64,000 nt of DNA from Shimia abyssi (lineage in GTDB: Bacteria; Pseudomonadota; Alphaproteobacteria; Rhodobacterales; Rhodobacteraceae). Positions 1 through 51,266 of the stretch are shown here, one piece after another. Position numbers and translations under genes: made by a program. The notes below the pieces were generated by a model, which made no database searches, was not told the origin of the DNA, and worked only from the letters and a program-made list of their open reading frames with translations. The stretch is from NCBI RefSeq assembly GCF_003014475.1, contig NZ_PYGJ01000002.1:186001-250000 (forward strand), given 5' to 3'. The stretch's first letter is position 1. Each line of letters starts with the position of its first letter.

Positions 1-506
1 CCCTTCACGTCCAGCACCACAGCACTGCCCTGATAGGTCAGAAGGTTTGGGATGACGAAGCCCGTCGTCTTACCGCGTCCGGTCGGGGCCACGATCAGGG
101 CATGGGGGAAGACCTTGGACATCACAAAGGGTTTTCGGCTCTTGGGTGTGCCCATTTTCCCGAGGACAAAGCCATGGCCGGGCTTGCCGAAAAAGCCGTT
201 CCGCTTCATCTCTGACATGTACTGCCAGTGGGTTTCACCGAATTTGGTCAGCGCGTCGTTCATCAACACAGCACTTAGCAAAACACCGGCGCAGGTGCAT
301 ATCCCGACGATCAAGTGAACGATCTGCATATCGGCCGGATGGGTCGCACGAAGCCCTCCATAGCCGCGCGCCAGCATCAGAAAATCGATATCCGCGCCGA
401 CCCCGAACCAGCGGAACGTCAGAAAGGCCGACGCCAGAACATAGCCCAAAGCCGCGCCCAGAGAAGCAAAGCTCATGACGCCGAATGCGATCCGAGCCTT
501 ACCCAT
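1..506 (-). CDS. TraG/VirD4-type conjugative coupling protein, N-terminal part (runs off window)
   Basis: Only the first 168 codons are in the window. The protein is an inner-membrane ATPase that in this family hands relaxase-bound DNA to a type IV secretion channel. Two hydrophobic segments (about residues 8-30 and 62-84) precede a nucleotide-binding domain whose Walker A loop, APTGRGKTTGF (residues 140-150), is visible before the sequence leaves the window. The ATG at 506 overlaps the TAA stop of the relaxase gene (499-501), so the two are probably translationally coupled, the usual relaxase/coupling-protein order. Family assignment is firm. Whether the gene is intact, and whether a full secretion system follows, cannot be seen. 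Confidence 0.85.
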   Translation of the reverse strand, partial: MGKARIAFGVMSFASLGAALGYVLASAFLTFRWFGVGADIDFLMLARGYGGLRATHPADMQIVHLIVGICTCAGVLLSAVLMNDALTKFGETHWQYMSEMKRNGFFGKPGHGFVLGKMGTPKSRKPFVMSKVFPHALIVAPTGRGKTTGFVIPNLLTYQGSAVVLDVK

Positions 507-3552: not shown

Positions 3553-3752
3553 TGCAACACCTCCTCAAGGATTGCGAGCGCCCCCAGACAATCGTCGATA
3601 TAGGGCTGCTCTTCGCCTTCCAGATCGTTGAGTTCCAGCCGGTTCAACACCGCGTAGAGCGTGGCGCGCGCTTCGCGGGCGGCGTTCCGAAGGCTCACGG
3701 TATCTTCCAGACGCGCAGTCGAGGAATCATCGCTGTGATGGTCCGGAGTCAT
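3549..3752 (-). CDS. small hypothetical protein of the ardC operon
   Basis: A 67-residue acidic protein beginning MTPDHHSDDSS. The remainder is predicted helical (LRNAAREARATLYAVLNRLEL). The ATG at 3752 has GGAGGTGGCAGC upstream and overlaps the ardC stop codon as ATGA. A much longer open frame reaching 3932 would read through the ardC gene on the same strand in another frame, so the short form is preferred. No domain recognised. Confidence 0.65.
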   Translation of the reverse strand: MTPDHHSDDSSTARLEDTVSLRNAAREARATLYAVLNRLELNDLEGEEQPYIDDCLGALAILEEVLQ

Positions 3753-4627
3753 GCTGCCACCTCCTTGCTCTGACTTGCTGCGTGTAAAACAAAGTCGGCA
3801 GCTTTCTGCGCCTCCGACGCCGCGCGAAAAACGGCCCGTTTGTCTTCTTTGAGCGCTTTCAACCACCCTTCGACATAGGCGGCGCTTTGGTCGAATTCCG
3901 GCGCGACGCCAATCTGAGCACCAAGGAAACAAGCACCGATTTCCGCCACCAGCTCTTCAAAGGCGTAGGCCTCGCGGTTCGCAAATTTCTTGATCCGCTC
4001 AAGCCGCTTTTCGCTACCGGTCCAGTGGATAACCTCATGGGCCAACGTCCCATAGTAGCCTGCCGCAGCGTGAAAAGTGGCAATCGGCGGCATGTGGATG
4101 TGGTCTTTGGCGGGGCTGTAGTAGGCGCGCGGGTCGTCGCTGGTCAGGATCTCCGCCCCTGTCCGGCTGAAAAACGCCTCAAGCCCAGGATCAGCCTCAG
4201 TGCCAAGATCGCGCGGGGCCTCGGGACGGATGTAGTACTCCTCAGGCAAACCTTCGATCTGATCCGCGTTGAAGACGCGGTATGCGCGCGCATAAGGCAG
4301 TTCTTCCTCAATGCCCAATTCGTTCTCTCGGGTGAACGTCCCGTATTTGACCACGGTCGACGACGATTCGCCTTTTCGAACCTGTCCGCTCAGCTCTTGC
4401 GCCTGCTTGTAGGTCATCCAGCGGTTGGATACATAACCATGCTTGGCCGCCATGACCCAGAGCATCAGGATATTGATCCCGCGATACTCTTCCCCGTTGT
4501 GTCGGGTCGGCAGGGCGATGCCGGACGCGCTTCCGGTCCACGGTTTGCGCCATGGCGGCGTGCCCGCCTCGATCTCTGCAATAATGGTGTCGGTGACATG
4601 GGCATAAACATCAAACTTCGGTGCCAT
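3749..4627 (-). CDS. ardC: ArdC-like antirestriction protein
   Basis: A 292-residue protein of the ArdC/zincin type. The N-terminal 125 residues match the single-strand DNA-binding domain (TPPWRKPW, followed by the GINILMLWVMAAKHGY block). The C-terminal part is a metallopeptidase-like domain with HEVIH at residues 197-201 and a downstream glutamate in YAFEELVAEIG as the likely third ligand. ArdC proteins travel on conjugative DNA and protect the incoming strand from restriction. The ATG at 4627 has AAGGAGG eight bases upstream. It is the first gene of a four-gene operon whose members overlap by four bases each. Confidence 0.88.
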   Translation of the reverse strand: MAPKFDVYAHVTDTIIAEIEAGTPPWRKPWTGSASGIALPTRHNGEEYRGINILMLWVMAAKHGYVSNRWMTYKQAQELSGQVRKGESSSTVVKYGTFTRENELGIEEELPYARAYRVFNADQIEGLPEEYYIRPEAPRDLGTEADPGLEAFFSRTGAEILTSDDPRAYYSPAKDHIHMPPIATFHAAAGYYGTLAHEVIHWTGSEKRLERIKKFANREAYAFEELVAEIGACFLGAQIGVAPEFDQSAAYVEGWLKALKEDKRAVFRAASEAQKAADFVLHAASQSKEVAA

Positions 4628-38310: not shown

Positions 38311-39612
38311 TTAGTTCAGCAGGTGCAACCTAGCCTTCAGAGCGCCGTCGATCGAAGAAAGCAACGCCTCAGGGAAACCCTCCGGAAGCTGATTGAACGT
38401 GGCCTCAACGATCGCTTGTGAAGTCTCCTGCAGTTCTTCGAATAGGCCCTGTACGACAGCGCGGGATAAGCCGGATTGAACTCCGGTCTCCACGATGTGC
38501 CGACCAACGATATTCGAAACCTTGTAGTGGTTTGAGTTGCCGAAATTCATGGCCAGTTTGAAGTACTTTCGCTCGATCTGTCGCGCATCGACAGTCGGCT
38601 GCACCGTCAAAACGTCGTAAAGCGGTGTCATGCGAAAGCGACCGCCGGGTAAGAGGCTGACGCTGAAGTTTTTACCATGTCCGTCTGTCGCGCCCAGCAA
38701 CCAGAACAGGACATTCGCTTTGAAAAAATCGTACCGGTCTTTGTTGGGGTCATCACTTCCCAACAATAGATCCATGATATCTGAGATTCCTGGGCCGCCC
38801 TCGTTCTGGTACTTCTGGGTAGGCACAACGGACAATGCTTGACAGCAATCCTCCTGCGGCAGACGGATCAAGCGGCCATCAGACGTCCAGCGCCGATCAA
38901 AACGCTCAACCACCAAGGCTTGCTTGTCGCCAAACTGAGCCATTTCAACATTCGCAGCCCGAAGCCCAAACGCTTCCATCATCTTCAGGCAAAGGTATTC
39001 GTTTTCTACACTGTCAGACAGATCCATGCCATTGGGCAGCCTGCCGATTTGCGGCTTGATGATGTGCGTGGTTGGCGTCGTGCCGGTTGGCTCAATCCAC
39101 TGGCCACCTTTACGAAGCAGCGCCGTTTTTTCCTGCGCGCCCGCGACGGAAATTCGGAAGTCATTCTCGCGGCGAATGCCCAGTGGCGCGAGATCAAGAT
39201 CGCTCAAAATTGCCCCAATCTGAGCCTCATTCACAACTTCTCCAGTCAACTCGGACATTGGCTGTGGCTCTTGCCCGTCGGGCAGAAACTGAAGCGCGCC
39301 GATACAGTCTCGCCCAATTTGTGACAGTAAGCTGAAGGCATCGACGCCCTCGGCCCCGACGCGTTCTGCTACCCTTCGACGGATTAGGTCACTGTCTGGC
39401 AACAGGTTGTCAAAAACGGCCATCACAGGTGCGCCGATGTACCGGTTCTCCTGCAATGGCAAAGACAACGACACCGGCATCCGGTGCTCCCAGTCGAGCC
39501 AGTCTCGTGCATAGGCGAAACTGACGCCGCCTGAAGGCTCACGTACCAGCTGGCCCACGAGCCGCGAGTTCAGGAACACGTTCAGCGGTGTGTAGCTGCG
39601 CTTGCGGCCCAT
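38311..39612 (-). CDS. hipA: HipA-type serine/threonine kinase toxin
   Basis: A 433-residue kinase very like E. coli HipA along its length. The glycine-rich loop RISVAGAQEKTALL contains the serine that is autophosphorylated in HipA; TPTTHIIK, the catalytic ATDGHGKNFSV and metal-binding TPLYDVLT follow. HipA phosphorylates glutamyl-tRNA synthetase and slows growth unless bound by HipB. All kinase motifs are intact. It follows hipB by one base. On a mobile element such a pair helps keep the element in the cell. Confidence 0.93.
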   Translation of the reverse strand: MGRKRSYTPLNVFLNSRLVGQLVREPSGGVSFAYARDWLDWEHRMPVSLSLPLQENRYIGAPVMAVFDNLLPDSDLIRRRVAERVGAEGVDAFSLLSQIGRDCIGALQFLPDGQEPQPMSELTGEVVNEAQIGAILSDLDLAPLGIRRENDFRISVAGAQEKTALLRKGGQWIEPTGTTPTTHIIKPQIGRLPNGMDLSDSVENEYLCLKMMEAFGLRAANVEMAQFGDKQALVVERFDRRWTSDGRLIRLPQEDCCQALSVVPTQKYQNEGGPGISDIMDLLLGSDDPNKDRYDFFKANVLFWLLGATDGHGKNFSVSLLPGGRFRMTPLYDVLTVQPTVDARQIERKYFKLAMNFGNSNHYKVSNIVGRHIVETGVQSGLSRAVVQGLFEELQETSQAIVEATFNQLPEGFPEALLSSIDGALKARLHLLN

Positions 39613-39613
39613 G

Positions 39614-39865
39614 TCAGAAAATGTCCTCTAGCCCGTCTGATGTGCCTTTGCTGCGCTCGGCCACCGTGATCTCGAGGTCCAAGGCCGCAATCAAATCGAA
39701 TAACGTTTCCAGCTTTGTGCCCCCGCTGCCGTTCTCGATCTTGGAAATTGTCTCCTGCCAGACACCGCTCATAGCGGCGAGTTCCTTCTGGGTTAGGTTC
39801 TTGGCCTTCCGAGCCCGGCGAATTGCGTGGCCCAAGTTTTTTGATGTACGAACGAGGTGCTTCAT
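39614..39865 (-). CDS. hipB: HipB-type antitoxin, XRE family
   Basis: An 83-residue helix-turn-helix protein (LTQKELAAMSGVWQETISKI). It would neutralise HipA and repress the operon by binding the three repeats just upstream. The ATG at 39865 has AGGAG nine bases before it. A longer frame reaching 40039 reads through those repeats and is not used. The C-terminal tail (ERSKGTSDGLEDIF) is acidic, as in HipB, where it is the degradation tag region. Confidence 0.9.
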   Translation of the reverse strand: MKHLVRTSKNLGHAIRRARKAKNLTQKELAAMSGVWQETISKIENGSGGTKLETLFDLIAALDLEITVAERSKGTSDGLEDIF

Positions 39866-39886
39866 GGCGGTTCTCCTGCCACTGTA

Positions 39887-39958
39887 TATGACCCCTGGAT
39901 CATAAATTGTCAATATGATCTCCAAATCATAAAGTCGCAGTATGATCCAGGCATCATA
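39887..39958. promoter_or_regulatory. three 18-base palindromic operators spaced 27 bases (hipBA)
   Basis: TATGACCCCTGGATCATA (39887-39904), TATGATCTCCAAATCATA (39914-39931) and TATGATCCAGGCATCATA (39941-39958) share TATGAt-N6-aTCATA arms. Start-to-start distances are exactly 27 bases. They lie 20-95 bases before hipB, where HipB-type autorepression acts. Confidence 0.82.
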
Positions 39959-40004
39959 AACCTCAACAGCGTTGCAAGCTGCCTCCCAGACTTCGCCAAT
40001 ACAA

Positions 40005-40868
40005 TCACGCCTGCATCCCCGCCGCGCGCACCTGCTCAAGCGTCACCAGCTTTGACGCAATCAGATCCTCGATCTGCCGGTTGGTGATGTGGCGGCACAG
40101 GGGATGGCGCTCATGGATCCACTCGGCAAGGCTCGCACGGCCTTTGGCTTCAGCCTCTCGCGCCTTCTCGCGGTCGGCCTGGATCTGGGCCAGTCCCTTG
40201 TCCCACCGGCGCATCTTGAACCAGTTATCCGAGAAACAGACCTTGCTGCGCGTGTAGCCCTCACTTTCCTTGGCATAGGCCTCGACCGCCTGTTTCAGAT
40301 CATCGGGCTTCAGCCCTGCCTTCAGGGCCGCAGCGATCAAGCGCAGAGTAGTCCGCCGGTCTCGGATCCTGTCTTCGGGATAGGCTGCTAAGATCTTCTC
40401 AGCTTCAAAATCTTCAACCTCCTCCGCCGCCTCGCGCTTGCGCGTAGGTGGTTTATGGATGGTTTTAGGATGGTTTGGGGTCCACAGTGAACCCCGTACC
40501 CCGTTCACCGTGGACCCCGTACCGGGTTCAGGCTGGACGGGGTTCACAGTGACCCCCGTCTCAATATCGGGCTCGGCCGTGGGTTCGAGCGCGGCCACCC
40601 GCTCCAGAACAATGCGGTAAATGACGGTGTAGCCATTCTTGCAGTGCCGCCGCCCTGTCTCGATCAAAATGCCTTCGCGCAGGAAGTCGATGATTGTACG
40701 CTTCACCGTGCTTTCGCTAAGCTCTGTGTGGCGCTGGATCGTCCCCTTGGAGCACCATATGCCCGAGCCGTCGTCGCTCGCCTTATCAGCCAGGAACATG
40801 ATGATCTGCTTGCGCGCGGCGCTGCCGAAGCGACGCTCAGCGCATTCATTTGCGATACGCCAGCTCAT
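40005..40868 (-). CDS. helix-turn-helix protein, replication-initiator-like
   Basis: A 287-residue protein. The N-terminal winged helix matches the type seen in phage and plasmid replication proteins (MSWRIANECAERRFGSAARK, then CSKGTIQRHTELSESTVKRT). The middle is Pro/Thr-rich and variable, and the C-terminal part helical and basic (CFSDNWFKMRRWDKGLAQI). Proteins like this lie beside integrases and tRNA attachment sites in Rhodobacteraceae islands. A role in element replication or excision control is plausible but unproven. The ATG at 40868 has GAGG seven bases upstream. Confidence 0.65.
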   Translation of the reverse strand: MSWRIANECAERRFGSAARKQIIMFLADKASDDGSGIWCSKGTIQRHTELSESTVKRTIIDFLREGILIETGRRHCKNGYTVIYRIVLERVAALEPTAEPDIETGVTVNPVQPEPGTGSTVNGVRGSLWTPNHPKTIHKPPTRKREAAEEVEDFEAEKILAAYPEDRIRDRRTTLRLIAAALKAGLKPDDLKQAVEAYAKESEGYTRSKVCFSDNWFKMRRWDKGLAQIQADREKAREAEAKGRASLAEWIHERHPLCRHITNRQIEDLIASKLVTLEQVRAAGMQA

Positions 40869-40974
40869 TGGACCACCTCACGGTTCAGAGGCCGCGGAAA
40901 AGCTGACTGAGCGTTTGCGGTAAGGCATTGGCCCGCGCTAAGGTCTTCCGAAAGCTGACAGGCTTTTTCTATTT

Positions 40975-41013
40975 GGCCCCGGTTCACAGTTGCCGCTGTG
41001 ACGGGGCCTTTTT
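40975..41013 (+). terminator. strong plus-strand intrinsic terminator
   Basis: GGCCCCG (40975-40981) pairs with CGGGGCC (41002-41008), with an inner stem CACAG/CTGTG, and is followed at once by TTTTT (41009-41013). This is a textbook rho-independent terminator on the plus strand, yet no plus-strand gene ends here. It may stop read-through towards the tRNA fragment or end an unrecognised small RNA opposite the start of the gene at 40868. Confidence 0.7.
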
Positions 41014-41118
41014 CGTTTTGAACCGGCGAATTTGGCTTTGAAACTTTCGCTTTTTGTTCACTTTTTGCCAGGGGGTGTTTTGCACCCTTAAGCCCTTGTT
41101 TTCGCTTTATCTCTTTCT

Positions 41119-41165
41119 GGATTGCAAATCCGTCTAGACCGGTTCGATTCCGGTACTCGCCTCCA
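41119..41165 (+). tRNA. 3' half of tRNA-Cys(GCA): attachment-site duplication
   Basis: GGATTGCAAATCC is the anticodon arm with anticodon GCA, followed by the T-arm ACCGGTTCGATTCCGGT and the 3' acceptor strand ending CTCGCCTCCA. The D-arm and 5' acceptor are absent; the sequence to the left is unrelated. This is the typical duplicated 3' segment left at the distal end of an element integrated in a tRNA gene. An intact tRNA-Cys would be expected beyond the left end of the window. Confidence 0.85.
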
Positions 41166-41180
41166 TTTAAAGTCAAGCAC

Positions 41181-41405
41181 TTAGCCATCTCCTTCTTGTG
41201 CCCCTAACGGGGCGTTTACAGTTGCGTTTACATTTTTGCCCTCGCGACGCTGCTTTTCGCGCTTCAGTAAGTCGAGAACTTCCGCGCTCTCTGAAGGCGA
41301 AACGGCGGCATAATGTTCTATGACGGCGGCTGCGTAGCGAAGCGACCACCCCATGTGATTTGCGATCTGGTTGAGACCAAGGCCTGCGCGGAGAAGCCTT
41401 GTGGC
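41181..41405 (-). pseudogene. tyrosine recombinase (integrase) C-terminal remnant
   Basis: Only about 75 codons remain. ATRLLRAGLGLNQIANHMGW and AAAVIEHYAAVSP match the end of phage-type integrases around the catalytic tyrosine. Its end faces the tRNA-Cys fragment about 15 bases away, the normal layout of an integrase beside its attachment site. The N-terminal part and the Arg/His active-site boxes are missing; the frame breaks at about 41405, where an HNH gene fragment on the other strand begins. Confidence 0.65.
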
Positions 41406-41409
41406 TACC

Positions 41410-41667
41410 AGCCAGCACATTGTCGATCACATCGACACCAACCGAATGAATAATCGCCCGGAAAACCTTCGCTGGATCACGAAACTTGAGAACATCTTAC
41501 TGAACCCGATCACACTTAAGCGGGTTCTTGAGGCATACGGTTCCGTTGAAGAGTTCTTTGCCGACCCCACGAAGCCGAAGCATAAGTCGCTTCCGAACCA
41601 ATACGGCTGGATGCGCACGGTAGCGGGTTCCCAATTCACCCACTTCCCCGCCTTCCAACATTCCTAA
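41410..41667 (+). pseudogene. HNH endonuclease C-terminal fragment
   Basis: In-frame residues HIVDHIDTNRMNNRPENLRW and LENILLNPITLKRV are the second half of an HNH homing-type or phage endonuclease. The first half, including the opening of the HNH motif, is missing. The fragment starts exactly where the integrase remnant stops, so a deletion or recombination joined them. Confidence 0.65.
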
Positions 41668-41685: not shown

Positions 41686-42063
41686 ATGCAAGATTGCGAG
41701 ACCACTGACACAGCCCTACCCAAGCAAATCGAACGCGCACATGTCGTTGCCGCTTGCCTCATGGTTCTGACGCATGAGGTCTATAACGCTGGGCTTGAAA
41801 CCCAAACTGCCTTGGACTTGCTTCGCGACGCGCCGGACAAAATCGAGGCCGCTCTTACTCGAGGTTCTCGCGCCCTGGTAGTTTACCGGCTCGATAAACA
41901 TGGGGCGCGGAGTATCGTTGGTGAAAGCGACGCTCGACTGAAGCACTTTGTCGCCACTGCCGAACAGTCACACGCTCCCATGTTTGGTTTCTGCCCGGCC
42001 GCAATTGCCGAGGTCGCCAACTGTATCGAGGCCAGTCTCGGCTCCTTGCGAAAGGATGCCTGA
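41686..42063 (+). CDS. hypothetical protein of phage-remnant region
   Basis: A 125-residue protein beginning MQDCETTDTALPKQIERAHV with no recognised family. The ATG at 41686 is preceded by a purine stretch (AAAAAAAAGAGA). It ends four bases before the start of the broken prohead protease gene, so it was probably part of the same phage operon. Predicted mostly helical. Whether it is still expressed is unknown. Confidence 0.45.
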   Translation: MQDCETTDTALPKQIERAHVVAACLMVLTHEVYNAGLETQTALDLLRDAPDKIEAALTRGSRALVVYRLDKHGARSIVGESDARLKHFVATAEQSHAPMFGFCPAAIAEVANCIEASLGSLRKDA

Positions 42064-42066
42064 CCC

Positions 42067-42423
42067 ATGCAATACGAGCGTTTCCAAAACACAAATACCC
42101 CTTCCTTTGGCCCTGAGATTGAAGCCGAGGCCAAGGTGGAGGAAGGCGAGCGATTGGTTCACCTATCCTTTTGAAGTGAAATCCCGGTCTTGAGGGATGG
42201 CCCTCAAGGACCGGCCTACGAGGTCTTAGGCCACGATCCGAGCGAAGTTGAGCTAGGTCGGCTCAACTCCGGTTCCGCACCAGTCCTCAAGGATCATCGG
42301 CGTGACGTGGACTCGATGGTAGGGACGGTAGTTTCCGCCCAGATCGAGGGACGCCGAGGCCGCGCAGATGTGCGGCTCGCAGACACGAAGGAACCCGCAT
42401 CATGTTGGGAGCCGCCGCGCTGA
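42067..42423 (+). pseudogene. phage prohead protease, interrupted and truncated
   Basis: Reading from ATG 42067, the N-terminus (VEEGERLVHLSF) meets a TGA at 42172-42174, codon 36. The same frame then continues SEIPVLRDGPQGPAYEVLGH and VELGRLNSGSAPVLKDHRRD, the pattern of HK97/Mu-type head maturation proteases with the catalytic-histidine region (the usual L-x-H is L-G-H here). The frame ends early at 42423. It is thus a remnant with one in-frame stop and a lost C-terminus. Downstream to 42574 nothing is recognised. Confidence 0.6.
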
Positions 42424-42574
42424 CCACGAACCGAAGCATGTACCCGAAAGACCTCAGCGCAAGGCAGCCAGAAGGTAGAGACAGGTAAACCCAATCCGAG
42501 CGAACCGCCTTGGCGGGCCATTTGATTGAGCAAGATCGCTTGACCGAGGCGACTTTGTTACCGAATTCCTAAGC

Positions 42575-43357
42575 CTAGTTAGGTTCGCCATTTGGCGAAA
42601 AGATGGCCTCTCTTATCTTGTTGGCAGCGCCTTGAAGCGTTGCGAGATGGGACAATGCAACATCAAATGACAGTCTCTGTAGCGGCCCGTGAATCGCTAG
42701 AGCCGCGACAAATCGGCCGGAATGATCTGTGACCGGGACGGCAATCGCGATCATCCCGTCAAGAAACTCCTGACGATCGAGCGAATAACCCTTAGCGGCA
42801 ATCTCCTTCAACTCAGCCAATAGTGTGTTTGGATCGGTATGTGTTTGATCAGTCAGCTTTTCTAACTTCATCGAAGCCAGAAATGCGCGCCGACTGCGCG
42901 GAGGCATACATGCAAGAAAACACTTGCCGCTGGCGGTGCAGTGGAATGGTACGTGGGTGCCAATCGGCAACTGAATCCGAAAGGGCCACGCCGTTTCAAC
43001 CCGATCTGTATAGCTCATCCCGAGTTTTTCAGGGACTACGAAGTTGACGGTCTCGTTCACTTCGCGGGCAACTTGAACCAGTATTTGGTGCCGAGCAATG
43101 TGCATACGGGACGCATCCAGTAACCCCGCCGAAACATCGCGCAGCCGACGGGCCGGCTGATATCGCTTGGAATTGCTCTGCTGCGTCAAAAACCCAGCCT
43201 CGACCAAAGTGTTGCACAAGCGGTGCACTGTTTGCTTGGGCAGTCCGATTTCCTGATTGATCTCGGTGGCGGTGAGCGGGTGGTCACTCTTGCTAAGTGC
43301 TTCGAGGATCAAAAGCGTTCTGATGTTGGTCGGTATTCGATCGCTTTCTTCCGTCAC
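42575..43357 (-). CDS. IclR-family transcriptional regulator
   Basis: A 260-residue protein. The N-terminal winged helix (LTATEINQEIGLPKQTVHRL) and C-terminal effector domain (SGKCFLACMPPRSRRAFLAS and QEFLDGMIAIAVPV) are complete. It is divergent from the GMC oxidoreductase gene and probably controls the sulfonate cluster to its right. I choose the GTG at 43357, with GGAG six bases upstream. An in-frame ATG at 43444 would leave almost no promoter space before the neighbouring gene. Confidence 0.87.
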   Translation of the reverse strand: MTEESDRIPTNIRTLLILEALSKSDHPLTATEINQEIGLPKQTVHRLCNTLVEAGFLTQQSNSKRYQPARRLRDVSAGLLDASRMHIARHQILVQVAREVNETVNFVVPEKLGMSYTDRVETAWPFRIQLPIGTHVPFHCTASGKCFLACMPPRSRRAFLASMKLEKLTDQTHTDPNTLLAELKEIAAKGYSLDRQEFLDGMIAIAVPVTDHSGRFVAALAIHGPLQRLSFDVALSHLATLQGAANKIREAIFSPNGEPN

Positions 43358-43464
43358 ACTCTCAGCTCCAAAAATTGACAATTGTTTTATCTGCGAATCG
43401 TTGTAGCGTATCCATTGTGCGAAAATCGAGATAAAAAGTCTCATTTATTGACAAAAAGGGTGAA
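43358..43464. promoter_or_regulatory. divergent promoter region, iclR and GMC gene
   Basis: A short AT-rich gap containing ACAATTGT (43378-43385) inside AAAATTGACAATTGTTTT, and a related TTATTGACAAAAAG near 43446-43459. Repeated TTGACA-like elements may be promoter -35 boxes or IclR half-sites; they cannot be separated by eye. Confidence 0.35.
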
Positions 43465-45066
43465 ATGGAGTTCGATTTTGTAATTATCGGGGCCGGTTCC
43501 GCCGGATGCGCACTTGCAAACCGGTTGTCCGAAAGCGGGCGGTTTTCGGTTGCGCTGTTGGAGGCGGGGCCGCGGGATCTAAACCCTTGGATTCACGTTC
43601 CGGTCGGATATTTTCGGACAATGGGCAATCCCGGCACCGACTGGCAGTATCGGACAGAGGCGGATAACGGCATTGCTGGGCGATCCATTCCTTGGCCGCG
43701 TGGCCGGGTGCTGGGCGGGTCTTCTTCTATCAACGGGCTGCTTTATGTCCGTGGCCAACCCCAGGATTATGACGGTTGGGCCCAGTTGGGCTGCTCGGGG
43801 TGGTCATGGGAGAGTGTTCTGCCGTATTTCAAGCGCTCGGAAACTTGGAAAGGCGCGAATGGCGCGGAGCTTCGCGGGACGGATGGACCATTGTCAGTTC
43901 AGACTTCGCGACTGTCACGCGACATTGTCGATCACTGGATCGAGGCGGCTGTGAATGCCGGCTACAAGAGGGCTGAGGACTACAACGGTGCCGATCAGGA
44001 AGGTGTCGGGCATTTTCAATTGACGATGAAGGGGGGACGGCGGTGTTCCTCAGCGGTGGCCTATCTGAACCCAGCGCGCGGGCGAAAGAACCTTGAGATC
44101 ATCACCAATGCGCAGACCGAAAAGGTGGTTCTGAAAGGCAAACGGGCCGTTGCAGTACGGGCACGGATCAACGGCACCATGACCGATATTCGCGCCCGCC
44201 GAGAGATTGTCCTGAGTGCGGGGGCTATTGGATCGCCGCAGATATTGATGCTTTCGGGTGTCGGTGATCCGGCGGAGTTGCGACCCCACGGGATTGATGT
44301 GCAGGTTGAGAGTAAGGGTGTGGGCAAGAACCTTCAGGATCATTTACAAGCCCGCCCGATATTCAAGACTGACCTCAGCACAATCAATGTAGAGACAGAC
44401 AGTTTTTTCAAACAGGCCATGATCGGGTTGCAATACCTGGTCTCTCAGACCGGTCCAATGACAATGGCGGCCAGCCTGGGAACTGGTTTCCTGAGAACTG
44501 AAGAGCATCTCGAAACGCCGGATATTCAGTTTCACATTCAGCCCTTTAGTGCCAATAATGCCGTCGAGGGGCCGCACCCGTTTTCGGCTTTTACCGCGTC
44601 GGTCCTGCAATTGCGGCCAGAGAGCGCTGGGCATTTGACGCTGACGTCCAGCAGCATGGATGATCATCCCAAAATCCATCCGAATTACTTATCGACCGAC
44701 ACCGACTGCCGTACAATCGTGCGTGGCATTCAGGTGGCGCGCACGATTGCGCAATACGAGCCGCTGAAGTCACATGTAACCGAGGAATACGCGCCGGGCG
44801 TTGACGTGGCCTTTGACGACGAAGAGGCGACGCTCGATTGGGCAAGGCGGTCGGCAGTGACAATTTATCACCCCACGGGGACCTGCAAGATGGGCATTGA
44901 CGAGTGTGCGGTTGTCGATCCTCGTTTGCGTGTACGGGGCCTGGAAGGGCTGCGCGTGGCGGATGCATCGATCATGCCACGCATCGTAAGCGGAAACACA
45001 AATGCCCCGGCGATCATGATCGGGGAAAAGGCAAGTGATCTGGTGTTGGAGGACGCGGATTCATGA
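43465..45066 (+). CDS. GMC-family FAD alcohol dehydrogenase (choline-dehydrogenase-like)
   Basis: A 533-residue flavoenzyme. The FAD loop is FVIIGAGSAGCALANRLSES at the N-terminus, GMC signature 1 is GRVLGGSSSINGLLYVRGQP, signature 2 is REIVLSAGAIGSPQILMLSG, and the catalytic His region is TIYHPTGTCKMG with the second His/Asn in VSGNTNAPAIMIGEK. It oxidises a primary or secondary alcohol. Its place at the head of a TRAP/HpsN cluster suggests that a polyol sulfonate such as dihydroxypropanesulfonate, or an isomer, is the substrate. Cytoplasmic; no signal peptide. Confidence 0.88.
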   Translation: MEFDFVIIGAGSAGCALANRLSESGRFSVALLEAGPRDLNPWIHVPVGYFRTMGNPGTDWQYRTEADNGIAGRSIPWPRGRVLGGSSSINGLLYVRGQPQDYDGWAQLGCSGWSWESVLPYFKRSETWKGANGAELRGTDGPLSVQTSRLSRDIVDHWIEAAVNAGYKRAEDYNGADQEGVGHFQLTMKGGRRCSSAVAYLNPARGRKNLEIITNAQTEKVVLKGKRAVAVRARINGTMTDIRARREIVLSAGAIGSPQILMLSGVGDPAELRPHGIDVQVESKGVGKNLQDHLQARPIFKTDLSTINVETDSFFKQAMIGLQYLVSQTGPMTMAASLGTGFLRTEEHLETPDIQFHIQPFSANNAVEGPHPFSAFTASVLQLRPESAGHLTLTSSSMDDHPKIHPNYLSTDTDCRTIVRGIQVARTIAQYEPLKSHVTEEYAPGVDVAFDDEEATLDWARRSAVTIYHPTGTCKMGIDECAVVDPRLRVRGLEGLRVADASIMPRIVSGNTNAPAIMIGEKASDLVLEDADS

Positions 45067-45182
45067 GCTGTTACCAGAAAGGAATGATGACGGCAGGAAA
45101 TTGAAGACGTGAACCGGGGCTAAGGCCTTCGCCCCCGGTCACACAAAGATAAATCAGAAGGCAACACCTTTGGGAGGTTAAG

Positions 45183-46277
45183 ATGATAAACGCTAAAACA
45201 CTGGCGGCAGGCGCAGCAGCGCTGGCGCTGATGGCAACCAGCGCTATGGCCGAAAAAGTCCTGCGCATTCAGTCGGTTCTGCCAAATACTGCCGACGAAG
45301 TATTCATGCTCAACGAGTTCGGCAAAGACGTGGCCGCCTTGACCGGCGGCTCACTTACAATCGAAGTGCTGCCCGCAGGCGCTGTTGTCGGCCCGCGAGA
45401 CATCATGGATGCGGTTGATGCCGGACTGGTCGAAGGCGGCTTTGCATGGACCCACTATTGGGGTGGCAAGCACGTTGCGGCCAACCTGTTTGGGGCACCT
45501 GTGGCGGGTGCCGGAGTTGGCATGGACAACATCGCATTTCTGAGCTGGTTCCAATATGGCGGCGGCAAAGAGCTCTATGACCGTCTGTGGGAAGAGATGG
45601 GCGTAAACGTCAAAGGCTTCATGCTTCAGCCAGTTGGCCCTGAGGCGCTGGGCTGGTTCCCTGAGCCGATTAAATCCATGGATGACTTCCGCCAGATGCG
45701 GTTCCGCGCACCTCCGGGCATGGTGGGTGCAGCCTATGCAGATGTTGGTGTACCTGCCGTTGCGATGGGCGGTGGCGACATCCTGCCTGCGCTTGAGAAA
45801 GGCACAATTGACGCAGCCGAATGGTGCTGCCCCAAGCCCGACTCTGTCTTTGGCTTCCAAAAAGTACTCAAGCACTATTACCTGCAAGGCTTGCACCAGG
45901 TTGTTGTGAATGCGGACATGTATGTGAACCTCGACTTCTACAACGACCTGACGGATCTTGAGAAAAAGGCGTTGGAAGTTGCAGCAACTGCGTCTCTGTC
46001 CAAGTCAATGTCCTATCGCATCTACGAAAACGGTAAGGCGCTTAAGGATCTGACCGACAATCACGGTGTCATTCTGGAAGACACGCCTGCCGACTACTTT
46101 ACCGAGTATATGGCAGCGGCAAAAAATGCGCTTCAAGAAGCGGCGGACGAGAATGAGTTCTTCGCGGAAGTGTGGCAATCACAAAAGGATTTTGCTGACG
46201 TTGCGGTTCCGTTCTGGGCCGGGGCGCAGGCCTCCAATGCGAGCTTGGGCAAAGCCCATGCCGACACACTTAAGTAA
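45183..46277 (+). CDS. TRAP transporter solute-binding protein (DctP type)
   Basis: A 364-residue periplasmic protein with a signal peptide of about 23 residues ending ATSAMA. The substrate-binding arginine block is MRFRAPPGMVGAAYADVGVP, followed by the LPALEKGTIDAAEWCCP helix. TGGGAGGTTAAG precedes the ATG. In this cluster the likely ligand is a C3 sulfonate, dihydroxypropanesulfonate, by association with the HpsN homologue. It belongs to the larger DctP branch used for keto acids, taurine and sulfonates. Confidence 0.9.
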   Translation: MINAKTLAAGAAALALMATSAMAEKVLRIQSVLPNTADEVFMLNEFGKDVAALTGGSLTIEVLPAGAVVGPRDIMDAVDAGLVEGGFAWTHYWGGKHVAANLFGAPVAGAGVGMDNIAFLSWFQYGGGKELYDRLWEEMGVNVKGFMLQPVGPEALGWFPEPIKSMDDFRQMRFRAPPGMVGAAYADVGVPAVAMGGGDILPALEKGTIDAAEWCCPKPDSVFGFQKVLKHYYLQGLHQVVVNADMYVNLDFYNDLTDLEKKALEVAATASLSKSMSYRIYENGKALKDLTDNHGVILEDTPADYFTEYMAAAKNALQEAADENEFFAEVWQSQKDFADVAVPFWAGAQASNASLGKAHADTLK

Positions 46278-46289
46278 CGCTTAGCAATC

Positions 46290-46382
46290 AAGAAAACCCG
46301 CCTCAGTGCAGTGCGCCGGGGCGGGTCCATCACGCGCTTTGCCCTGTATTGGTAAGCCGCCCCGCTAAAGTGGGCCGCTTTT
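46290..46382 (+). terminator. hairpins between binding-protein and permease genes
   Basis: ACCCGCC near 46295 can pair with GGCGGGT near 46320 across a GC-rich loop. A second imperfect stem at 46353-46378 (AGCCGCCC / GGGCCGCT) is followed by TTTT. Together they look like an attenuator that leaves less message for the permease than for the binding protein. Confidence 0.5.
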
Positions 46383-46401
46383 GAATAAGGGGACGATGAG
46401 A

Positions 46402-48882
46402 ATGGCAGACGAAGTCAATCCAGACGAGCTGGAAATTGCCGACGAACTTATTGCGGAGCGGCGATCTGAACAGCCGGGCGAGACTCCTGAAGATATGACC
46501 GCGTGGCAGCGCCCCATAACGGCGGCCATCGACGTGATCAACTATCGGGCGGGTCAACTTATCTCATCCCTGTTGGTGCCGTTGATTGCGGTCGTAGTCT
46601 ACGAAGTCTTTGCCCGAAACTCGTTTTCGATCCTGTCCAATGCAGGCATGGGAGAATTTGCCCGGTCGCTGGGGCTGGGCCCGACACTTTGGGTCTACGA
46701 CACCAGCCGCATGTTGGCCGGGGTGCTGTTTATGGCAGCGGCAGGCTACGGCCTGATGCGAGGCGTACACATCCGGGCGGACTTTCTATATCGCAACTGG
46801 TCAAGCAAGACACAGGCAACAGTTGACGCAATTTTGTATCTTTTGTTCTTCATCCCCGCGATGATTTTTTTCACTGTGGTGTCTGCGCAATTCTGGTGGC
46901 TGGCTTTTTCAACGGGTGAGACAATGCAGATCGACAGCGCATGGGGGCCGCTTTTGTGGCCAGCACGCACTGCGATGCCAGTTGGCGGCTTCCTGTTACT
47001 GCTGCAAGGCATTCCCGAGATTTTCCGAGCGTTTCATAAAATGGGCAAGGAGCGGGAACGCATTTTTGTAATCGCGCTACCGATCTACCTCATTGGTTTG
47101 ACTTGGTTGGTGCTGGCGATCTTTGCCCCCGATCTGGTTCCAGGTGGCGAATGGTTCACCAACATCATGAGTGCCCGACCCAATATTTCGAAGCCAACCA
47201 TTGGCTTGATCATGCTGGGTGCGATGCTTTTCGTGATTTTCATCGGGTTTCCGATTGCTTTCACACTCATATTTCTGGCTTTCGTGTTTGGCATCTGGGG
47301 TGCCAATTTCAAGCTGACGACGCTGTTGATGACGCTGAACACCAACTCGACAATGTTGAACGATCAGCTGATGGCCGTGCCCTTGTTCGTTCTGATGGGA
47401 ATCGTGATGGAGCAAGCGGGGCTGATGGAACGTTTGTTCGGCTCCATCCAGATGATCATGTCGCGCGTGCGTGGCGCCCTTTATATCGCGGTGCTTGTGG
47501 TTTCAACGATCTTTGCAGCTGCGACGGGCATTGTTGGGGCATCTGTGACCATCCTAGGCATCATGGCCGGTGCCACGATGAGCCGGTCAGGATATAATGT
47601 GCAGCTTGCGGCGGGGACAATCACCGCCGGTGGGACATTGGGCATTTTGATCCCTCCGTCTATTATGCTGATTGTGATGGGGCCGGTACTAGAAGTTTCA
47701 GTATTGGATCTGTTCCGGGCCGCATTCATTCCCGGCGCGCTGTTAGCGTCGCTCTATCTGCTCTACACGTTGGGCCGGTGTTGGTTGAATCCAGATCTTG
47801 GGCCGATCCTTGCTGAAGAGGATCAGCCGGTTACATCCAACAATTATGGCGCCGAGGTTGTCTTGATCTGTCTTGGCGTGTTGGCCGTGTGCCGCGTGTT
47901 TGGTTGGGCGCTGGGTGGCTCGTTTTCCGGTCTCTTCCCGTTTGCCGGCCTTATTGCGACGCTTGCCGCAATTTGGCTCGCCTATCTTGCCTACAAGAAA
48001 TTGACAATCCTGCGCATCGTGGCCGCAATTGTGGTCGGCGGGCAAATCTTGCTGTCGGTCAGTGCCCTCTTGGCGGGTAGCATGTCCGGGACCGCGACGG
48101 TTCTCACTGTTGCCTGGCTGTTCTTCATAACGGTCGCGGGCTACTTGATCCTGCCGATTTACAGGTCGGACGCAAAGGAGAACTTCTATTTCTCAGATCT
48201 GTGGGATGAATTCTTTCAAGGGCTGATGCCGCCCACAATCCTAATCAGTTTTGCGCTGGGTTCAATCTTGTTGGGGTTGGCGACACCAGCCGAGGCCGCC
48301 GCAATGGGGGCATTCGGTGCGATCCTCTTGTCTATTGGATATCGCAAATTCACGTTCAAGGGGTTTGGCGAATGCTTAATAAAGGCGCTGGAAATCACGG
48401 TATTGATCATGTTCCTTGTGGCCGCGTCGAATTTCTTTGGTGCAGAGTTCTCCAATCTAGGCACGCCCAAGATGCTGACAGACGGCCTATTGGCCTTGGA
48501 CATGTCGCCCTACATGGTTCTGATCCTGATTATGGCGCTGGTGTTTCTGCTGGGTTGGCCATTAGAGTGGGTGCCGATTGTTCTGATCGTGGTGCCGATC
48601 CTGCTGCCCACGATCATCGCGCTTGACCTGCCGGGATTCGAAAGCAAGTACGACCTGTTGGTGTGGTTTGGCATTCTGGTGGCTGTGAATCTGCAAACTG
48701 CGTGGTTGTCGCCACCTGTGGCACTATCAGCGTACTTCCTGAAGGGCGTGGTGCCCAATTGGGACCTCAGAGACATTTACCTCGGCATGATGCAGTTCAT
48801 GCTGGTGCAATTGCTCGGGCTTATCCTGTTGTTTACCTTTCCGCAGCTGGTGCTGTGGTTGCCCAAAGTCATGGGAGGCTGA
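46402..48882 (+). CDS. TRAP transporter fused small/large permease (DctQM) with extra helices
   Basis: An 826-residue membrane protein. Residues about 40-230 are a DctQ domain and from about 265 a DctM domain (MLFVIFIGFPIAFTLIFLAF, then ATGIVGASVTILGIMAGATM and TAGGTLGILIPPSIMLIVMG). About 100 residues with some four hydrophobic segments (near 486-588, VLICLGVLAVCRVFGWALGG to LILPIYRSD) are inserted before the last DctM part (GLATPAEAAAMGAFGAILLS). It forms the transporter with the preceding binding protein. I use ATG 46402, with GGGGA eight bases upstream; TTG 46381 and ATG 46396 are alternatives. Confidence 0.9.
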   Translation: MADEVNPDELEIADELIAERRSEQPGETPEDMTAWQRPITAAIDVINYRAGQLISSLLVPLIAVVVYEVFARNSFSILSNAGMGEFARSLGLGPTLWVYDTSRMLAGVLFMAAAGYGLMRGVHIRADFLYRNWSSKTQATVDAILYLLFFIPAMIFFTVVSAQFWWLAFSTGETMQIDSAWGPLLWPARTAMPVGGFLLLLQGIPEIFRAFHKMGKERERIFVIALPIYLIGLTWLVLAIFAPDLVPGGEWFTNIMSARPNISKPTIGLIMLGAMLFVIFIGFPIAFTLIFLAFVFGIWGANFKLTTLLMTLNTNSTMLNDQLMAVPLFVLMGIVMEQAGLMERLFGSIQMIMSRVRGALYIAVLVVSTIFAAATGIVGASVTILGIMAGATMSRSGYNVQLAAGTITAGGTLGILIPPSIMLIVMGPVLEVSVLDLFRAAFIPGALLASLYLLYTLGRCWLNPDLGPILAEEDQPVTSNNYGAEVVLICLGVLAVCRVFGWALGGSFSGLFPFAGLIATLAAIWLAYLAYKKLTILRIVAAIVVGGQILLSVSALLAGSMSGTATVLTVAWLFFITVAGYLILPIYRSDAKENFYFSDLWDEFFQGLMPPTILISFALGSILLGLATPAEAAAMGAFGAILLSIGYRKFTFKGFGECLIKALEITVLIMFLVAASNFFGAEFSNLGTPKMLTDGLLALDMSPYMVLILIMALVFLLGWPLEWVPIVLIVVPILLPTIIALDLPGFESKYDLLVWFGILVAVNLQTAWLSPPVALSAYFLKGVVPNWDLRDIYLGMMQFMLVQLLGLILLFTFPQLVLWLPKVMGG

Positions 48883-48885
48883 GGC

Positions 48886-49938
48886 ATGATCAGTGCACAG
48901 CGTTCGACACTTTCCTATCTGAAATGGCCTCTGATCGTGACGTTTGTCGGTCTGGTGTTATCCGGCTGGCTAGGCTGGGCTACAGAAGGCACCCTTGGCG
49001 GCATCCTGTCGTTCCTGTTAATCGGGAGTGTACTGGCGGCGTTGGAGATCGGGTTGTCTTTCGACAATGCCATTGTGAATGCCAACAAGCTGGAAGACAT
49101 GACGCCGGTCTGGCGACAGCGGTTTTTGACGTGGGGCATCCTGATCGCCGTATTCGGGATGCGCATTGTTTTCCCGCTGGCGATTGTCGCGATTTTTGCG
49201 TGGATCAATCCGTTTGAGGCGATGAAGCTGGCCTTGTCGGACCCAGACGAATATTCGCACATCATCGAAGGCGCACATGGATCCATCGCTGCATTTGGCG
49301 GCACGTTCCTAATGATGGTGGCGCTAAAGTTTTTTGTGGACGAGGACAAATCCATCGACTGGATTGTCGGGCTGGAGTGCCGATTGCGAAAATGCGGGTC
49401 GGTCCGGGGGTTCGAGATTGCGTTGGTCCTTGGGATCATGTTGAGCATCTGCTATTTCCTGCCGACGCATTTCCAATCGACATTCCTGTTCTCGGCAATC
49501 ATGGGCCTATTGGTGTTCACGTTGGTGGATGGGTTGGGCACTTATCTGGACTATAAGTCAAACCAGATGGCCCAGATGGGCGCTCGCGGCGGTCTGGGCG
49601 CTTTCCTGTATCTCGAAGTACTGGACGCCAGCTTTTCATTTGACGGTGTTATTGGCGCCTTCGCGTTGACAGCGAATATTCTGTTGATCGCGATTGGGCT
49701 GGGAATTGGCGCTATGTATGTGCGCTCAATGACAATTCTGTTGGTCGAAAAAGGTACGTTGCAAGAGTTTCGCTACCTCGAACATGGGGCGTTCTATTCG
49801 ATTTTCGCCCTGTCCGTAGTCATGTTTGTGCAATCGCTGACCCATGTGCCTGAGATCCTGACTGGGGGCATGGGTGTGGCTTTTATCGGGTACGCATTCT
49901 TCTCATCCATTCGCCATAATCAACGAGAAACCCAATAA
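48886..49938 (+). CDS. DUF475/TerC-family integral membrane protein
   Basis: A 350-residue membrane protein with about nine hydrophobic segments. SVLAALEIGLSFDNAIVNAN and EVLDASFSFDGVIGAFALTA are the duplicated SFDNA/SFDGV motifs of the TerC/DUF475 family, whose acidic residues lie in the membrane. TerC proteins are linked to metal ion export. What one does in a sulfonate operon is unknown: it might export manganese or an anion such as sulfite. It is four bases from the permease stop and overlaps the next gene (TAATG), so it belongs to the operon. Confidence 0.85.
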   Translation: MISAQRSTLSYLKWPLIVTFVGLVLSGWLGWATEGTLGGILSFLLIGSVLAALEIGLSFDNAIVNANKLEDMTPVWRQRFLTWGILIAVFGMRIVFPLAIVAIFAWINPFEAMKLALSDPDEYSHIIEGAHGSIAAFGGTFLMMVALKFFVDEDKSIDWIVGLECRLRKCGSVRGFEIALVLGIMLSICYFLPTHFQSTFLFSAIMGLLVFTLVDGLGTYLDYKSNQMAQMGARGGLGAFLYLEVLDASFSFDGVIGAFALTANILLIAIGLGIGAMYVRSMTILLVEKGTLQEFRYLEHGAFYSIFALSVVMFVQSLTHVPEILTGGMGVAFIGYAFFSSIRHNQRETQ

Positions 49939-51266
49939 TGGATCGGACATCGCGCGCCATGACAAGAACCTATCTCAAGAAAGCAACGCTAACGGCAGTG
50001 TCGGATGCGACCGAAGTCCGTGAAACCGTGTCACGAATTTTGCAGGAGATAGACACGCACGGAGATGCGGCAGCGCTGGAATATGCTGCGAAGTTTGACA
50101 AGTACGACGGCAACATCCTATTGACCGAAGAGGAAATCGCAGCGGCGGCGGCAAAGGTGCCGCAGAAGTTGAAGGATGATATACGGTTTGCACAGGACAA
50201 TGTGCGCCGGTTCGCAGAACAGCAAAAACAAACGGTTTCTCATATTGAATATGAAATTGTGCCGGGTCTAATTGCGGGGCAAAAGGCTATCCCAGTTGCG
50301 GCGTCAGGATGCTATGTTCCAGCGGGTCGCTATCGCCACATTGCCAGCGCCGTTATGACGGTGACTACGGCCAAGGTTGCCGGGTGCAATCATATCACCG
50401 TGTGCAGCCCGCCCCAACCTGGAGAAGGCATCAACCCGGCTATTGCCTATGCCGCCAAGGTCAGCGGCGCGGACAAAATCATGGCGATTGGTGGCGTTCA
50501 GGCAGTTGCGTCCATGGCGTTTGGGTTGTTGGGTCAGCCCAAAGCAAATATCATCGTTGGCCCCGGCAACCAGTTTGTCGCCGAAGCCAAGCGCAGTTTG
50601 TATGGTCGTGTCGGTATTGACATGATCGCAGGTCCAACCGACAGTCTGGTCCTGGCCGACAAGGACGCGGACGCATTTATCGTCGCTACTGACCTAGTTA
50701 GCCAGGCGGAACATGGCTATAATTCACCGGTGTGGCTCGTTACCGATGACGGAGCACTGGCAGAGAATGTTCTGCGTTTGGTTCCCGATCTAATCGAAGC
50801 GCTGCCGGCGCTCAATCGCGAAAACGCTGCCGCAGCATGGCGGGATTATGCAGAGGTGATCTTGTGTACGGATCGCGAGGAGATGGCGGCGACATCAGAT
50901 GAATACGCGCCCGAGCATCTTACGGTTCAAGCGGCTGAACTGGATTGGTGGCAAGACCGCCTAACATGTTATGGTTCGCTCTTCTTGGGCGAGGAAACCA
51001 CTGTATCGTATGGTGACAAAGCGTCAGGGACGAACCACGTTCTGCCAACGTCGCGCGCAGCAACATATACTGGGGGCTTAAGCGTTCATAAGTACATGAA
51101 AATCGTGACATGGCAGCGCGCTACACGCGAAGGTTCTAAATCAATTGCCCAGGCAACCGCGCGTATTTCGCGACTGGAGGGCATGGAAGGCCACGCCCGC
51201 GCGGCCGATGTTCGGCTGGCCAAATACTTCCCGGATGAGGATTTTGATCTATCGGCAGATGGATGA
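49938..51266 (+). CDS. hpsN: HpsN-like sulfopropanediol 3-dehydrogenase (histidinol dehydrogenase family)
   Basis: A 442-residue zinc dehydrogenase of the HisD family. It has GPGNQFVAEAKR, DMIAGPTDSLVLADKDAD and SQAEHGYNSPVWLVTDD (HisD itself has a different residue set after SQAEHG), EYAPEHLTV, and NHVLPTSRAATYTGGLSVHK. These match, from memory, HpsN, which converts (R)-2,3-dihydroxypropane-1-sulfonate to (R)-sulfolactate with NAD+. The IclR/TRAP context excludes histidine synthesis. The start at 49938 overlaps the stop of the DUF475 gene. ATG 49959 would give the usual shorter N-terminus (MTRTYLKKATL). Confidence 0.87.
   Translation: MDRTSRAMTRTYLKKATLTAVSDATEVRETVSRILQEIDTHGDAAALEYAAKFDKYDGNILLTEEEIAAAAAKVPQKLKDDIRFAQDNVRRFAEQQKQTVSHIEYEIVPGLIAGQKAIPVAASGCYVPAGRYRHIASAVMTVTTAKVAGCNHITVCSPPQPGEGINPAIAYAAKVSGADKIMAIGGVQAVASMAFGLLGQPKANIIVGPGNQFVAEAKRSLYGRVGIDMIAGPTDSLVLADKDADAFIVATDLVSQAEHGYNSPVWLVTDDGALAENVLRLVPDLIEALPALNRENAAAAWRDYAEVILCTDREEMAATSDEYAPEHLTVQAAELDWWQDRLTCYGSLFLGEETTVSYGDKASGTNHVLPTSRAATYTGGLSVHKYMKIVTWQRATREGSKSIAQATARISRLEGMEGHARAADVRLAKYFPDEDFDLSADG

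Follow-up and report, generated by a model that had tools for sequence, protein, structure and literature searches.

Within the window, as we call the whole 64,000-base stretch of DNA analysed here (C2:186001-250000 of a 4.73-Mb genome in 48 contigs; positions without a contig are those of the window), a 71,240-base ICE inserted in a tRNA-Cys gene reaches its outer end, and the 3' half of the gene that it displaced had probably been joined already to an older element, now decayed. In the history that we propose, recombination between the attP of the ICE and tRNA-Cys would have split the gene upstream of its T arm, giving it a new 3' half at the left end of the element and pushing the former 3' half to the right end. 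This displaced half was probably already attached to the older element. All that would survive of that element's integrase, which belongs to a different family but also targets tRNA-Cys, is a C-terminal stump beside remnants of phage genes.

The border is marked by positions 41119-41165 (plus strand), where 45 of 47 bases agree with the end of the host tRNA-Cys (bases 28-74), while ARAGORN reports no tRNA gene in the window, the expected outcome with half a gene. The sole other match to this segment in the whole genome (C2:155879, E ~1e-15) sits within an intact tRNA-Cys(GCA) gene at C2:155852-155925, and an integrase of 343 residues (PF00589) ends 68 bases past that gene on the opposite strand. 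As attR, this segment forms the outer end of an ICE that extends from core to core over 71,240 bases (C2:155879 to C2:227165), with its left end, the intact tRNA-Cys and integrase, 30 kb left of the window and its right part at 1-41165 (plus strand). A preliminary description of this DNA, made from the letters alone, had recognised a tRNA-Cys 3' half lacking its 5' half, had proposed that 1-41165 belongs to an island with an intact tRNA-Cys and integrase left of the window, and had called for a search for a second copy of the repeat; the half gene is as described, the one other copy lies inside the intact gene, and the predicted left end is present 71.2 kb to the left. The two mismatches give CTAG instead of GTAC in the variable loop, as placed by manual folding of the tRNA-Cys gene, and the stems are the same. 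G+C content, at 0.566 in the element and 0.567 and 0.563 in its flanks, offers no contrast and was rejected as an island marker.

The integrase and flanking att repeats at a chromosomal site are accompanied by the other components that characterise an ICE, namely a type IV secretion system of the mating-pair type with VirB4, and a relaxase and coupling protein (PF03432 and PF02534). Left of the window lie genes for VirB1, VirB3, VirB4, a second SLT protein, VirB5, VirB8, VirB9 (CagX), VirB10, VirB11 and VirB6; VirB2 is represented by a 96-residue candidate reading frame only, and VirB7 was not identified among the VirB genes. The window itself begins in a VirD4-like coupling protein (1-506, minus strand; T4SS-DNA_transf, E 3.5e-86), the rest of which lies left of the window (L187:1614-3506), followed on the same strand by a MobA/VirD2-like relaxase (499-2391; PF03432, E 9.1e-13) that is 90-94% identical across five ICEs, a helix-turn-helix protein with a weak MobC match under the curated cut-off (2294-2884) and an ArdC-like anti-restriction protein (3749-4627; PF08401, E 2.2e-38; PF18818, E 3.6e-47). 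Toward the right end, again on the minus strand, are HipA (38311-39612) and its helix-turn-helix partner HipB (39614-40039), with copies of the pair in genomes G005 and G010 at 96-97% and 89%, and then a replication-initiation protein, Rep (40005-40868; phrog_270, E 2.2e-16), with 86-95% identity in four other ICEs. Between the start of rep and the core runs an attachment arm of the int1 type (40869-41118), in which a simple scan found neither promoter nor terminator; one promoter-like site, at 41426, lies outside.

Cargo occupies three places in the ICE. Left of the VirB genes are an amidotransferase, a PALP enzyme, an aspartate dehydrogenase, a solute-binding protein, an M24 peptidase and PhyH. 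Among the proteins encoded in the gap between VirB6 and VirD4 (L005:16083-19493, equal to C2:181083-184493), one has a CTD6 domain as in ABC-three-component systems, and this gap may hold a defence system. The main block, at 5494-37434, encodes sarcosine-oxidase-type enzymes, DHDPS, MR_MLE, TRAP and ABC transporters, dehydrogenases, FAA hydrolases, a class II aldolase and GH32, most of its genes having no counterpart in the corresponding stretches of other ICEs. These functions suggest cargo for the use of amines, amino-acid derivatives and sugars.

Two integrase families, int1 and int2, which are 20-24% identical to each other, share the tRNA-Cys target. Among 77 distinct int1 loci, obtained from the best 80 of 96 relatives and including some duplicated records, so that the counts are not independent, 74 lie 71-78 bases from tRNA-Cys (62 intact genes and 12 half genes); the exceptions are L050, where the stretch ends 70 bases past the integrase, L096, without a match, and L108, with a half gene farther away. 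All 13 int2 loci sampled in a survey of 149 family genomes adjoin a tRNA-Cys gene accepted by ARAGORN. The conserved ICE backbone carries either of these two distantly related integrases, both aimed at the same site. Further arrangements at this site include an 11-kb element with a third integrase (28% identical to int1) stacked ahead of an int2 ICE in G017 and, in G127, a mirror order of tRNA-Cys, an int2 element of ~15 kb, a 3' half and a remnant of an int1-type integrase. Across many named genera of Rhodobacteraceae (L038-L061, L095, L102), int1 integrases share 96-98% identity, which suggests recent spread. Despite the distant relationship of their integrases, many int1, int2 and int3 loci have a TCAAtgACTT-like motif after CCA (41166-41190 in the window), which might serve as an arm site or form a tRNA trailer.

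The sequence to the right of attR carries the trace of the older element. A C-terminal stump of an int2-type tyrosine integrase occupies 41181-41405 on the minus strand, its stop codon (41181-41183) lying 15 bases beyond 41165. Positions 41229-41405 align with the last 59 residues of an int2 integrase at 59% identity, and the stump is 82-88% identical over 65-74 residues to the intact int2-type integrases of G164 and G127, genomes of two other genera, reaching their C-termini; both of these integrases adjoin an intact tRNA-Cys. On the plus strand follow an HNH endonuclease fragment (HNH_3, 41371-41667; PF13392, E 1.8e-11) that has a 57% relative elsewhere in this genome, on contig C3, a 125-residue protein of unassigned function (41686-42063), 69% identical over 121 residues to a protein of G002, and a broken prohead protease remnant (42069-42425), whose two pieces, split by a stop codon, were searched separately and gave 86% over 73 residues to a relative's Peptidase_S78 and Phage_capsid protein. 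The integrase end facing the tRNA half and the HNH and protease remnants had all been recognised in the preliminary description. The 125-residue protein has no relative among phage records or viral contigs, where two pattern matches were obtained and none was confirmed. In G002, a tyrosine integrase ~27% identical to int1 comes after a relative of this protein and a protease-capsid protein, on a contig (C53) other than that of tRNA-Cys (L188:6320-9956). The open reading frame at 41173-41430 was rejected as the integrase, not being in the integrase frame, and its 17kDa_Anti_2 match (Pfam, E 0.0012) was taken as noise.

The preliminary description had read this junction as successive insertions at one tRNA gene, the right-hand one now decayed. 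This reading is supported by the stump, which comes from a different integrase family, itself associated with tRNA-Cys; 217 kb of sequence revealed no far border for the right-hand element, nor did a third tRNA-Cys 3' end appear near the island in that span at up to 3 mismatches over 20 bases. Under the strict tandem-array rule, by which every island must bring an integrase and a tRNA fragment, the ICE qualifies and the right-hand element, for which 217 kb yielded no such fragment, does not. The arrangement looks like a decayed tandem array that falls short of this strict Islander rule.

A rather unlikely alternative, though the strongest of those considered, is that the stump is debris, which either came from another place or stayed behind when integrase modules on the ICE were incompletely exchanged. 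The lack of a far border would suit this account, as would the occurrence of int2-type integrases on ICEs with the same backbone. Moreover, the HNH and protease pieces are absent from 60 kb taken from each of G164 and G127, the closest intact relatives of the stump, and may therefore be other decayed phage DNA. However, the place and orientation of the stump are those of an intact int2 integrase beside tRNA-Cys, and the bases that follow CCA resemble int2 loci. The ICE-borne int2 of G011 and G017 is also less similar to the stump (59-69% identity) than are the G164 and G127 integrases, so the stump is not the recent former module of the ICE. An older element docked at the same tRNA-Cys remains our preferred reading of the stump.

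Related ICEs place the borders in a wider context. The backbone recurs in four genomes of the same genus, G005, G010, G011 and G017 (VirB4 95-96% identical, relaxase 90-94%), bounded in each by tRNA-Cys 3' copies, and host DNA left of tRNA-Cys matches at 65-82% across relatives. The gene comparisons used long open reading frames picked by length, not gene-finder calls, and the p213 comparison was made without G010. The relaxase was found at E <=1e-200 in 4 of 149 sampled family genomes and Rep at E <=1e-80 in 10 of 25 genus genomes, this genome being included in both counts. A stretch of ~10.5 kb between the tRNA and a 3' copy in Ruegeria sp. HKCCSA071 (L039) contains this integrase and Rep, with no match to the VirB proteins of the ICE.

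Comparison with relatives lacking the island, as the preliminary description had suggested, succeeded for a related ICE and not for this strain. The G010 flank outside the 3' half aligns at 73% (G007) and 70% (G019) with the sequence that follows tRNA-Cys in those genomes, where no second tRNA-Cys piece was found; these loci represent a filled and an empty site. An ancestral right flank is recognisable in seven relatives, but the present genome gives no long match to it, so an empty site is not demonstrable in this strain itself. A large rearrangement was judged a less likely cause of the odd right flank than replacement. Of 15 genomes, four (G007, G009, G017 and G023) have tRNA-Cys and the sequence at C2:302001 on one contig, and in all four the latter lies downstream with its orientation unchanged; DNA immediately left of tRNA-Cys keeps its place in 14 of 15, with G009 as the exception; the farther part of the left-flank query is found elsewhere in G004, G008, G014 and G017. 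Since the flanks keep their orientation and place, it is likelier that the stretch between the tRNA-Cys flank and C2:302001 has been replaced. Positions 42683-51266 (an IclR regulator, GMC oxidoreductase, TRAP transporter and histidinol dehydrogenase) form a block that is collinear at ~70-74% in five relatives checked, in none of which it lies beside tRNA-Cys.

The cargo blocks vary among related ICEs, and at least two tRNA-Cys matches occur in 15 of 23 genomes of the genus, marking tRNA-Cys as a much used docking site in marine Rhodobacteraceae. Both observations could be taken to mean that the two tRNA pieces bound at least two stacked elements whose inner tRNA copies have been lost. We regard this as improbable, given that the backbone genes occur in the same order and at both ends of the element in G005, G010 and G011, with the cargo between them, and that the 217 kb searched held no inner tRNA-Cys 3' end at up to 3 mismatches over 20 bases. 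Neither a chance match nor a tRNA pseudogene unconnected with integration is a credible explanation of the half gene, as E ~1e-15 for a 47-base match excludes chance and the segment is preceded by element-type arms and followed by an integrase stump, in the same arrangement as in relatives.

Among the five ICEs, the start of the repeat falls on tRNA base 27 or 28, where the anticodon stem begins, and its end on CCA; in most other loci it starts at base 27-31, and two loci have a start at 23-24 with mismatches. In G008 and G017, a T stem of GAG/CTC replaces CGG/CCG in the displaced halves. They are preceded by an arm of the int1 type in G008 and of the int2 type in G017, and the outer flanks behind them match at 86.6% over 6.8 kb and 82.6% over 3.4 kb. 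Because the T stem and flank are common to both genomes and the arms differ in type, the T arm belongs with the host side. The intact tRNAs that G008 and G017 now possess have the other T arm, which would have been brought by an element, and the crossover most likely splits tRNA-Cys upstream of the T arm, in the anticodon loop.

Displaced tRNA halves can thereby preserve former tRNA alleles. The CTAG loop at 41119-41165 may be the host allele from before the arrival of the ICE, the alternative being a later mutation. Of 394 family genomes, two contain the exact 47-mer, namely the present one and G057, where its bases read as an intact tRNA; the 3-kb locus of G057 has no match to backbone or integrase proteins of the ICE. 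CTAG is also present in an intact tRNA beside an int1-family integrase at L088. We considered whether the CTAG loop is tied to int2-type elements and found no link, the tRNAs beside the two closest relatives of the stump being without it.

The arms from rep to core are 87-91% identical among three int1 ICEs and 82% between two int2 ICEs, as opposed to 63-66% across types, where 50 shuffles of one arm gave a mean of 60 and a maximum of 66; Rep is 86-97% identical across the int1 and int2 types. Arm typing covered 13 Rep loci, and the 12 with a core in reach comprise five int1-type and seven int2-type arms; the other, L216, has an arm that scores int1-like, yet an int2-type integrase in the same locus. 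Divergence of the arms starts at the rep start codon. The other breakpoint falls inside an Arc-like protein, whose N-terminal DNA-binding half follows the integrase type while its C-terminal half is common. These breakpoints are ~69 kb apart when the element is integrated and enclose one cassette in the circle. Since the cassette is contiguous only in the excised circle, the simplest reading is that integrase, arm and the DNA-binding half of the Arc-type regulator would be exchanged between excised circles.

The active ICE would be excised to such a circle, replicated by Rep and moved by the VirB/VirD4 machinery and relaxase. The integrase and rep lie on the same strand at opposite ends of the ICE and, from the coordinates, transcription of int in the predicted circle crosses the core and reaches rep after ~365 bases. 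This order exists only across attP, so strong Rep expression would be expected only after excision. We tentatively hypothesize, as a view with somewhat less than even support, that tRNA-Cys is kept as the one target while cassettes are exchanged between circles, that Rep is strongly expressed only post-excision, and that arriving elements overwrite the 3' half of the tRNA and leave fossil alleles behind. A separate arrangement involving a related Rep was observed in G022, where a 66% Rep relative occurs twice, 18.9 kb apart (L239, C2:139025; L240, C2:157923), the two places sharing at least 2,551 identical bases. One copy is beside an intact tRNA-Arg(CCT) and the other beside a copy of its 3' part, and an integrase-like C-terminus, read by eye from the bases, lies upstream of the second copy in the same direction; the pair may have arisen by tandem duplication of a related element at a different tRNA.

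A 47-base scrap of tRNA has thus led to a precisely bounded mobile element of marine Rhodobacteraceae with ~30 kb of mostly catabolic cargo. Given that old alleles can survive in displaced halves, the sequence becomes a record of where past insertions crossed over and in what order they occurred. Moreover, two barely related integrases with one target and one backbone provide a natural test of what fixes integrase specificity. We found no description of a tRNA-Cys ICE family of Rhodobacteraceae or Shimia among the open-licence papers that our searches listed, as judged from titles and the beginnings of abstracts. A roseobacter prophage study gives tRNA targets, with Cys absent from the available part of its text (PMC8224337), and the available parts of two papers on marine mobile elements contain nothing on tRNA-Cys (PMC12016528, PMC11104534).

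Tandem islands at tRNA and tmRNA genes have been documented (PMC4383910, PMC3146451), and integration is described as leaving tRNA fragments (PMC9897764). The tRNA islands and ICEs of the Islander catalogue (PMC4383910) likewise have a tyrosine integrase by the restored tRNA and a displaced 3' fragment at the far end, with attachment sites of the anticodon type and known tandem arrays; in contrast to them, the right-hand member here has no tRNA fragment of its own, and the portion of the catalogue paper available makes no mention of a tRNA-Cys ICE family in Rhodobacteraceae. In Dehalococcoides, several islands are stacked behind the one ssrA gene, each bound by a 3' repeat and with small differences between gene and displaced repeat as seen here, although those islands use a serine integrase and a tmRNA target and have no conjugation genes of their own (PMC3146451). 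Streptococcal ICE families, which exchange integration modules, similarly pair related conjugation modules with unrelated integrases, but at many integration sites, whereas both integrases here use one tRNA-Cys site (PMC4701971). Conjugative plasmids of Rhodobacteraceae and Rhizobiales with a VirD2-like relaxase share the relaxase family and the neighbouring coupling protein, yet all 535 matching records are below 60% identity to the ICE relaxase, and the ICE is chromosomal with an integrase and att sites. The ICE belongs to a known kind of island; notable in its family is the regularity with which the cassette appears to be exchanged while the target stays constant.
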